From NCBI RefSeq assembly GCF_001956985.1, contig NZ_CP019082.1, positions 3,162,001 to 3,226,000 on the forward strand: a DNA stretch of 64,000 nucleotides, in the 5' to 3' direction. This stretch comes from Paludisphaera borealis (GTDB lineage Bacteria; Planctomycetota; Planctomycetia; Isosphaerales; Isosphaeraceae). Below are positions 13,201-25,400 of this stretch, in pieces; the first letter of the stretch is position 1, and every line of letters starts with the position of its first letter. A program made the translations under genes and the position numbers. Below the pieces are notes generated by a model. It was not told the origin of the DNA. It worked only from the letters and a program-made list of their open reading frames with translations, and did no database searches.

Positions 13201-13660
13201 CACGTTTGGGTTCGATCGCTCGGAAAACCATCGCTTCCCCACCCGATCGCCCGCCGTCGCTCGCCCCCGCCCCCGTCTACAGGGCCTTCCCGGCTCGCCC
13301 CTTCGCCTCGACGGCCCGTTGCCGATATTGGGTTCGATCGCCCCGTCGAATTCGGCTCGCGTTCGACCATCAACTCTTTTAACTTCCAGGCTTTGCGTCG
13401 GAAATCGCTTTTGGCTTCGTTCGCGCCGAAACACCCCGATTTTCGATCTCGCCCCAACTCGGCTCACCGCGGTCTCAGGGTCGCTCGTCACCGTTCTTCC
13501 GGATTCCGACTCCCCAGGCTTCGTCGAACCCATTGGCTTCGTTCGCGCGCGATCTTCAAAGGGCGAGCGGCCGACCCGCCTTGAACTACCGCGCACCGAG
13601 TTGGGAAAGAACCCATGCGATCACCAGAATCGTCCATTTTACAGTGTACTACGCGGACGC
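13201..13660 (+). repeat. Repeat cluster A: four TTGG-TTCG-TCG units plus a terminal unit
   Basis: Units with the core TTGGSTTCGWTCGCNCG begin at 13206, 13328, 13411 and 13533 (spacings 122, 83 and 122). A fifth, variant unit TTGGGAAAGAACCC at 13601 closes the cluster, followed by CCATTTTACAGTGTACTACG. Between cores the sequence is pyrimidine-rich and dominated by CGCCCC/TTCG words. All three forward frames stay open here only by composition, and their apparent proteins differ in frame between units, so I treat it as non-coding. A matching cluster lies at 22716-23170. Confidence 0.75.
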
Positions 13661-14086: not shown

Positions 14087-14302
14087 ATGGCGGATTCAGG
14101 CGATCAGGTGATCTCGAACCAGGAAAAGATCCTGGCCAACCAGGGCGAGATCAAGAGCAACCAGGAGGCGATCATCGTGGCGAACCAGGAGAAGATCCTG
14201 GCCAACCAGGCCCAGATCAAGAGCAATCAGGAGGCGATCCTCGCCAACCAGCAGAAGCTCGACGCGATCATCGCCAACCAGGAGAAGATCCTCGCCGGCT
14301 GA
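14087..14302 (+). CDS. 71-residue Ile/Asn heptad coiled-coil protein
   Basis: Almost the whole protein is a coiled coil built on a repeating I-x-x-N-Q-x-x heptad. Ile/Val/Leu occupy the a positions (8, 15, 22, 29/30, 37, 44, 51, 58/61, 68) and Asn occupies every d position (11, 18, 25, 33, 40, 47, 54, 64), nearly always followed by Gln. Two register shifts occur, near residues 29-31 and 59-62. A 21-22 residue block is duplicated in tandem (about 9-30 and 32-52). There is no signal peptide or membrane segment. ATG 14087 has CAGGAGA at a suitable distance; an upstream in-frame ATG at 14012 lacks one. The function is unknown. Confidence 0.75.
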   Translation: MADSGDQVISNQEKILANQGEIKSNQEAIIVANQEKILANQAQIKSNQEAILANQQKLDAIIANQEKILAG

Positions 14303-22715: not shown

Positions 22716-23170
22716 GGAAATTGGGTTCGTTCGTCCCCGAAACGGCTCGTTCCGCCGTCCCCCCCACCCTGTTTCGGCCCTCCGCCTCACGCCCTCGCGC
22801 GATCGGGACGGTCGTCTCCGGGCGGTCCCGAATTGGCTTCGTTCGTCGGGCGAAATCCGCCGTCTGACCGTTCCTAAAGCCCATATTGGCAAGCGTTTGC
22901 AGCGGTCTCAAGAATTGGCTTCGATCGCGCGAAAACCACTCGCTTTTCGACCTTGATCGTCCCCGCTTCGGCCCGGCTCGTCGCCCGTTTCGACCGGTGC
23001 CCGAGTCTCCGGCGGATTGGGTTCGATCGCGCGATTTTTGCTGTCGGCGTATCGCGACCAGCCTCGACTGCGGCCGACTTCGGCGATGGGTAACCTCGAT
23101 CACGTTCCATTCGAATTGGGAAAGAGCCGGAGCGAATCGCGGACTCGCCCATTGTGAATATACGACGTCC
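22716..23170 (+). repeat. Repeat cluster B: four TTGG-TTCG-TCG units plus a terminal unit
   Basis: Units begin at 22721, 22833, 22915 and 23017 (spacings 112, 82 and 102), with cores such as AATTGGCTTCGTTCGTCGGG and ATTGGGTTCGATCGCGCG. As in cluster A, the series is closed by a variant unit, TTGGGAAAGAGCC at 23116, followed by CCCATTGTGAATATACGACG. Unit order, spacing pattern (long, short, long) and the terminal motif all match cluster A, although the intervening sequence has diverged. No convincing coding frame is present. Confidence 0.75.
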
Positions 23171-23298: not shown

Positions 23299-23358
23299 CA
23301 GGTGAGACCCAAGAACGGCTCCTGACCCCATTGATTCCCTGACCCATTGATTCCCCCG
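23299..23358 (+). repeat. Dispersed ACGGCTCCTGACCCC repeat, copy 1
   Basis: CAGGTGAGACCCAAGAACGG, then CTCCTGACCCCATTGATT, followed by a partial second CTGACCCATTGATT. It aligns with 25321-25380, which has the same doublet structure, and inversely with 25964-25996. It marks the left end of an accessory stretch. Confidence 0.65.
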
Positions 23359-24599: not shown

Positions 24600-25270
24600 A
24601 TGAAGCCGAAGCGGCGTCACAACTTGATCCAATACATCCGACGGGCCCACGAGGAGAGCAGGTCAGAACGACCTACGGTTCGCCGCGCGTCCATCAGGCC
24701 CTCAAGGCCCGGGGCGTCGGGTGCAGCGTGAACACCCTGGCCAAGCTGATGAAGGCCGATGGGGTCCGTTCCAAGGCGCGGCGGCGGTTCGTCGTCCGCA
24801 CCACCGACATCACCTACGTGCCGACCGCCGAAAGCTGGCTCTATCTGGCGGTGGTTCTCGACCTGTTCTCCAGGCGGGTCGTTGGCTGGGCGACGGCCGA
24901 CCACCTGCGGGCCGAACTGGCCTGCGACGCCCTGCGGATGGCCCTGAAGCATCGCCGCCCCAAGGCCGAACTGCTGCACCACAGCGACCGCGGCGTGCAA
25001 TGCGCCTGCGAGTCGTGCCAAGCCCTCCTGGCCGAACGCAAGATCACCCCGAGCATGAGCCGAAAAGGAAACTGCCACGACAACGCCGTGACCGAGAGCT
25101 TCTTCAGCACCACCAAACGCGAACTGACCCACCACGAATCATACGCCACCCGCGAGGAGGCCTGTCGTTCGCTGTTCGAGTACATCGAAGTGTTCTACAA
25201 CCGCCGACGTCTCCACTCGACGCTCGGCTACCGCAGCCCCGTCGACTACGAAGCCCGCTTCCCCAATTGA
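24600..25270 (+). pseudogene. Decayed IS3-family transposase (OrfB-like)
   Basis: From about 24728 a 180-codon frame encodes the DDE integrase core: TTDITYVPT (first Asp), HHSDRGVQ (second Asp) and CHDNAVTESFFSTTKREL (Glu), ending LHSTLGYRSPVDYEA. Upstream, the helix-turn-helix region continues as TTYGSPRVHQALKARGVG in the same frame, but the preceding IRRAHEESR is in another frame, so a frameshift lies near 24660-24670. Between RRRFVVRTTD and ITYVPT, about 26-30 residues normally present in IS3 OrfB are missing (joint near 24805). Both lesions make the element inactive. No terminal inverted repeats or OrfA were found. Confidence 0.8.
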
Positions 25271-25320: not shown

Positions 25321-25380
25321 GCAGGTGGGACCCAAAACGGTTCCTGCCCCCTTTGATATGTCTGACCCCTTTGATTTGTC
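25321..25380 (+). repeat. Dispersed ACGGCTCCTGACCCC repeat, copy 2
   Basis: CAGGTGGGACCCAAAACGG, TTCCTGCCCCCTTTGAT, then a second partial CTGACCCCTTTGATTTGTC. Same doublet arrangement as 23299-23358. It lies just downstream of the transposase remnant. Confidence 0.65.
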
Positions 25381-25400
25381 TAGTTCAGGAGGCTGATCAC

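Follow-up and report, generated by a model that had tools for sequence, protein, structure and literature searches.

Helically phased repeat arrays, many with a boxA-like end, along the chromosome of Paludisphaera borealis, and their recurrence in relatives

The chromosome of the planctomycete Paludisphaera borealis carries about one hundred arrays of a short repeated unit, in which units are spaced in steps close to the helical repeat of DNA in vivo and of which many end, on the right side, in a site matching the boxA of the organism's own rRNA operons. With moderate confidence, we interpret these as phased protein-binding arrays lying within boxA-led non-coding transcription units that probably organise the chromosome, this chromosomal role being the least certain part of the combined reading. 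The arrays point to an undescribed kind of chromosome element.

Two arrays, A and B, lie in the window, the stretch of 64 kb that was analysed (G000:C1:3162001-3226000, from a genome of 7,651,896 bases in three contigs). The 13-bp core TTGGSTTCGWTCG has eight exact matches in the window, four in each array; one other core-like site has a single mismatch and all the remaining ones have two. Array B carries its four exact units on the plus strand with spacings of 112, 82 and 102 bp. Unit 1 (22721-22733) is of the A-type, i.e., the core followed by GAAA, and unit 4 (23017-23029) of the T-type, followed by TTTT. Units 2 (22833-22845) and 3 (22915-22927) are the left and right members, C1 and C2, of a central pair 82 bp apart, enclosing an AT-rich central island with TAAA...TTTGC ends and no assigned strand (22870-22905), as seen in an alignment of 29 central elements. 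Unit 2 forms a row of that alignment and heads the list of matches to the R1 model, having itself been part of that model's input. To the right of the units come the closing motif TTGGGAAAGAGCC (23116-23128) and then the end motif CCATTGTGAATATACGACG (23149-23167). On the minus strand, the closing motif corresponds to a boxA-like site (23112-23127) that reads GCTCTTTCCCAATTCG, with at most 4 mismatches in 16 positions to the boxA of all three rrn leaders of the genome. It is separated by a short inverted repeat (23129-23148, minus strand) from a promoter-like block, GTCGTATATTCACAATGG, identified by motif alignment (23149-23166, minus strand), with a -10-like hexamer at 23157-23162 and an unconvincing -35.

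Array A has the same layout, with exact plus-strand units at 13206-13218, 13328-13340 (C1), 13411-13423 (C2, 83 bp from C1) and 13533-13545, and a central island at 13370-13400, again without strand and delimited by the central-element alignment. Its minus strand bears a degenerate boxA-like site (13597-13613; 5 mismatches to the rrn boxA, counted by eye) and a promoter-like block predicted from the sequence (13631-13652), including a -10-like TACACT at 13643-13648. The closing motif of array A is found at 13601, which places it, as in array B, 395 bp from the start of the first unit. When 13201-13660 and 22716-23170 are aligned globally, 58/65 positions agree within the array A cores and closing motif, while the remainder scores 221/351 (0.63) against 0.616 +/- 0.025 for array B with shuffled spacers, a value equalled or beaten in 27% of 300 spacer shuffles. 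The sequence-only reading of array B is therefore borne out in its description of exactly placed units and of a layout mirroring array A with most intervening bases changed, identity outside the conserved elements being at chance level, and its array ends, closing and end motifs alike, do recur in further copies of the array. Its proposal that the cores are under selection while the bases separating them turn over is also supported; of the two kinds of site it had offered, the protein-DNA site is favoured and RNA structure is not supported. It counted the closing and end motifs with the repeats, whereas they resemble a boxA and a promoter-like block when read on the opposite strand, and it treated array B as the second member of a pair, whereas there are about 105 arrays. 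Elsewhere in the window, short tandem repeats CCTGACCCCATTGATTC / CTGACCCCTTTGATATGT at 23321-23355 and 25344-25381 flank a stretch that contains an rve integrase gene (24728-25270) and looks like mobile-element debris, and a two-copy tandem repeat of 66 bp (14115-14243) lies inside a small predicted gene (14108-14302).

Genome-wide, the core has 299 exact copies, against one for the reversed pattern. The 270 exact cores listed fall into 99 clusters, 97 of which keep to a single strand, and the addition of model matches brings the chromosome to at least 105 clusters. These are mostly intergenic, a few array edges overlapping predicted genes. About 5 of the 105 are not true arrays: their units adjoin an IS or lie where a repeated protein gene ends. 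The repeated protein gene is found at L017, L038, L053 and L100, with unit-like sequence near its 3′ end at the first three, so that some isolated units are coding. The core belongs to a unit of roughly 23 bp that ends in an A-tract or a T-tract, and unit types follow one another in order from left to right: core with A-rich end, central pair about 82 bp apart round the AT-rich island, core with T-rich end. Indeed, among the 393 units of P. borealis, the A-type lies left of the T-type in 172 of 190 informative pairs. Across the 29 aligned central elements, one A at the left island end is invariant and TT at the right end nearly so. Dispersal as copies of a transposon or MITE was rejected, as copies are not alike along their length, arrays A and B standing at chance outside the cores; the formal alignment behind this statement covers the A/B pair.

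The spacing between neighbouring units peaks at about 45, 57, 67, 79, 89, 101, 113, 123 and 135 bp. The Rayleigh power is 47 at 11.25 bp when the central pairs of 80-84 bp are excluded (n=95) and 34 when they are included (n=139), and none of 2000 jittered control sets reaches either value. The first 42 loci, from which the idea of phasing arose, give a power of 38 at 11.2 bp (n=81), and the 60 later loci, which are not strictly held out because whole-chromosome coordinates had been used earlier, give 56 at 11.15 bp (n=124). All 205 spacings together, with the central pairs left out, yield a period of 11.17 bp (bootstrap 11.06-11.28) and an offset of 0.4 bp. For comparison, lac loops in vivo have been fitted with a helical repeat of 11.60, 11.08 or, when HU is absent, 10.95 bp (PMC1762422), and about 11 bp per turn is reported in PMC8501960. 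Spacing in multiples of 11.17 bp would set the units on one face of supercoiled DNA, and sites placed whole turns apart on such DNA are the natural reading. Steps so close to the helical repeat in vivo favour a DNA-protein site over RNA structure. Not every distance is phased: the C1-C2 spacing of 82-83 bp in P. borealis equals 7.4 turns and is out of phase, and the distance from boxA to the last unit shows no phasing (Rayleigh 1.1, n=40). Many central pairs of the relatives G031 and G030 are 89-91 bp apart, i.e., eight turns; these two genomes mostly repeat one spacing and thus provide no independent test of phasing. In G007, from another genus, the spacings that recur are 36-37 and 51 bp, which do not fit whole multiples of 11.2.

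At the right end, the search for a boxA relied on GCTCTTTGACAATCCG, which is present in all three rrn leaders of P. borealis and is taken as their boxA; the gamma-proteobacterial consensus is given as GYTCTTTAANA in PMC5725501. The complement of GCTCTTTGACAATCCG, allowing 4 mismatches in 16 within 250 bp, is found to the right of 64 of 102 arrays, array B among them and array A not, against 1/102 on the left, 0/102 for the reverse strand at either side and 1/102 farther right. Ahead of boxA, reading from the right end, a block GTCG-TANANT...TGG is conserved. The hexamer TANAYT, which was picked after inspection of the logo, precedes boxA in 36 of the 64 arrays and in 0/64 at a 400-bp offset, and A-rich positions appear at -35 distance, outside the region used for aligning. 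The candidate promoter would thus have a strong -10-like part and a weak -35, and it is of another type than the canonical rrn promoter of P. borealis, TTGACC-16-TAATAT. Between block and boxA, the longest inverted-repeat stems average 4.1 bp, a modest excess over the 3.5 bp of shuffled sequence (36 arrays). On the predicted RNA strand, the spacers are purine-rich in 86 of 96 arrays, six short arrays having been dropped, compared with 44/96 right flanks and 62/96 left flanks; the same holds for 4 of 6 arrays in G031 and 5 of 7 in G030. Both elements, the boxA and the promoter-like block, belong to the opposite strand at this end, so that transcription would appear to enter the array from the right and probably proceeds leftwards.

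Arrays are also more evenly placed along the chromosome than expected from circular random placement with an exclusion of 2.5 kb (5000 simulations). The clusters listed in P. borealis, at least 105, have a median gap of 61.7 kb and a coefficient of variation (CV) of 0.62 where 0.95 is expected; gaps shorter than 30 kb number 9 of 105 among the listed arrays, where 34 are expected and the simulation minimum is 21. Very similar values are obtained for the clusters listed in G031 (at least 93, drawn from 150 scored candidates), with a median gap of 61.9 kb, a CV of 0.60 and, among the listed arrays, 11 gaps below 30 kb where 31 are expected and the simulation minimum is 17. Arrays beyond those listed could shorten some of these gaps, and the two genomes are not independent where their arrays are orthologous, the even spacing reflecting partly shared ancestry. 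Contig C2, taken to be a plasmid on account of its size, carries array matches in both P. borealis and G031. Array orientation is mixed within every quarter of the chromosome, and GC skew computed from the array loci gives no clear two-arm pattern. Neighbouring genes have no fixed strand relative to the array, the left neighbour being on the same strand at 42 loci and on the opposite one at 60 (102 loci), and the right neighbour at 45 and 56, respectively. Among the gene families flanking the 102 loci, none recurs except the IS110 transposase (11/102) and groups of at most 4.

The arrays recur in the relatives of P. borealis. Within the genus, the central-element model finds matches with E of 0.1 or better in each of the 6 genomes searched. 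At the class level, under stricter filters and with 23 candidates per genome, model R2 is matched at 1e-4 by 14 of 148 genomes. These 14 all belong to the family Isosphaeraceae, and the eight that lie outside the genus have 1-12 matches each. G002, from another genus, shows by eye the central element alone. In G007 (L188-L199), the core occurs in short-period repeats of 36-37 bp, along with a recurrent 51-bp-spaced stretch on several contigs. A scan of the contigs of other genomes with the A-type unit pattern gave no match, and a scan with a second pattern gave 49 stretches, of which 40 belong to Paludisphaera soli, 1 to an Isosphaeraceae MAG and 8 to other phyla, these last being scattered and taken as chance; both scans may leave out genomes near the window. 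Among the relatives sampled, boxA is rare. At up to 3 mismatches, boxA-like sites stand right of the units at 2 of 12 loci in G007, a third genus, and at 0/6 in G002 and 0/2 in G028. At up to 4 mismatches, they are seen at 2 of 15 loci in G031, with 0 in controls, and at 2/20 in G030 and 1/5 in G029, where the genomes' own controls reach 1/20 and 1/5; counts so little above controls do not establish boxA in these two.

Some arrays may also keep their position between genomes. In G031, a flanking gene agrees in side and strand with one at a P. borealis array for 6 of 15 array loci, a count of 7 from which L063 was removed because its matches of 48-50% point to two loci; the six include the pair formed by array B of the window (winB) and L070. 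The corresponding counts are 5/20 in G030 and 0/5 in G029. Conversely, 8 or 9 of 15 loci in G031, 15 of 20 in G030 and 5 of 5 in G029 have no side- and strand-consistent P. borealis array, although some of them share genes in another arrangement, such as array A of the window (winA) with L082.

The repeats might instead act as RNA, in a structured or array-type non-coding RNA family of CRISPR-like or regulatory kind, a reading we regard as unlikely. It would account for the promoter-like block, the boxA and the purine-rich predicted RNA, and in 22 of 30 elements from relatives the unit and its inverted copy carry complementary S bases; boxA is also known outside rRNA (PMC5725501). Yet no RNA structure emerges, and pairing and covariation do not clearly exceed shuffles. 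Single units have no hairpin propensity (393 P. borealis units; mean z -0.13 to -0.34 by class), RNAalifold returns no consensus structure for the 29 central elements, arrays A and B show no folding beyond that of shuffled sequences, and pairing of the unit palindrome in 29 elements of relatives is not clearly above shuffles, which reached the observed percentage of paired cells 32 times in 500 and the covariation score 63 times in 500. At gathering scores, Rfam finds three tRNAs only in the 64 kb window. Moreover, phasing at 11.2 bp of sites 45-135 bp apart, with spacer lengths that differ by helical turns, is not predicted by an RNA model. As for the CRISPR-like variant, CRISPR arrays with a boxA leader are known, and they share with the present arrays repeats with unrelated spacers behind such a leader. 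A CRISPR-type array is nevertheless disfavoured, as neither near-identical repeats nor a constant spacer length is found: the repeats are degenerate, and spacer lengths come in whole helical turns (unit spacings 35-136 bp). Array B has no match to phages and plasmids in blastn at E 0.01, a search too coarse for single short spacers. An rRNA operon leader would likewise have an rrn-matching boxA downstream of a promoter-like block, whereas the arrays are not followed by rRNA, number about 100 copies and carry GTCG-TANANT rather than TTGACC-16-TAATAT. A long regulatory leader or operator serving the adjacent gene would be consistent with the promoter-like block and with the far (left) gene, which runs along the predicted direction of transcription at 60 of 102 arrays; since that gene runs against it at the other 42, neighbours share no common family apart from the IS110 transposase and small groups already mentioned, and even spacing is left unexplained, this is the reading to which we give the least credence.

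Only slightly more credible, and still improbable, is a selfish or semi-selfish interspersed repeat of the REP/BIME type, which a RAYT (Y1 transposase) would have spread and which would be tolerated between genes. BIME/RIP-type clusters of REP sequences in enterobacteria and pseudomonads are mosaics of repeats with a central AT-rich island, and the arrays resemble them in being a mostly intergenic, clustered mosaic with such an island, in hundreds of copies, and in being targeted by an IS110-family element. Indeed, P. borealis has 17 copies (L157-L173) of a 1449-bp IS110-family element (PF01548) whose left junction is the exact TTGGSTTC of the array core in 14 of the 17; the repeat itself is apparently the insertion target, and some IS are described in PMC1525189 as targeting REPs. 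P. borealis also has five Y1_Tnp hits, some of them near arrays or unit-like sites. One Y1 transposase gene (PF01797, L174; G000:C1:7453204-7456539) has an array of seven same-strand unit-like sites about 0.7 kb away and is the only one of the five within 1 kb of an array; a second lies 3 kb from an array, a weak hit stands beside two unit-like sites in a protein gene, a fourth has a single degenerate unit-like site about 0.6 kb away, and the fifth has none in the stretch examined. Against this origin, G031 is rich in arrays (at least 93 clusters) and has no Y1_Tnp hit, the units form no hairpins and run in one direction in 97 of 99 clusters, the spacers of A and B are unrelated, and neither even spacing nor helical phasing is expected of a selfish repeat. 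Membership in the REP/BIME class was rejected for want of hairpins, of alternating orientation and of RAYT dependence; inverted unit copies do occur inside the central elements of G031 and G030. Direct units, phasing, even spacing and a promoter-like block with boxA at one end set the arrays apart from REP clusters. A further comparison is with matS, Noc sites and parS, dispersed chromosome-organising sites that are single and short and have a known binder. The arrays likewise consist of short sites repeated along the chromosome, for which one binding protein is proposed, and they differ in being multi-site, phased and evenly spaced, in their possible transcription leader and in their presence on a second replicon. 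We know of no system in which binding arrays are helically phased, led by an rRNA-type boxA and spread evenly along a chromosome. A search of one open-access library, covering titles and the openings of abstracts, returned no description of these repeats, and in PMC5352709 the words 'intergenic' and 'non-coding' are absent, the two uses of 'repeat' examined, out of four, concerning a CRISPR count and a CAZyme gene.

Altogether, these observations lead us to favour a model of phased protein-binding arrays within boxA-led transcription units. A single protein would bind all the 13-bp sites, set whole helical turns apart, on the same face of the DNA, and would form a nucleoprotein filament or loop on the array; at its core, the two units of the central pair, 82-91 bp apart, would flank the AT-rich island. 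At the right end, on the opposite strand, the putative promoter, the short inverted repeat and the boxA resembling that of rRNA operons would direct leftward transcription under Nus control, yielding an untranslated RNA that Nus factors may shield from termination. The arrays could then serve as chromosome-organising sites, acting as domain anchors or boundaries, a role suggested by their recurrence every 60-70 kb or so, their avoidance of close placement and the lack of a fixed gene orientation. A bolder and rather doubtful extension is that of a bacterial insulator system, in which about 100 boxA-led non-coding units, each crossing a helically phased protein array, would delimit nucleoid loops of about 60-70 kb, with Nus-modified RNA polymerase and the array-binding protein gathered into hubs on both chromosome and plasmid. 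Were this so, evolution would have recorded in the unit spacings the helical repeat that prevails in vivo (11.17 bp).

Should the arrays have another function, the element would still call for explanation, its central-element model matching every genome of the genus that was searched and having fewer matches in other genera of the family. If they do organise the chromosome, planctomycetes would have a defined set of domain sites, the arrays would amount to a natural gauge of DNA twist in vivo on the scale of a genome, and boxA transcription units other than those of rRNA would gain a large class.
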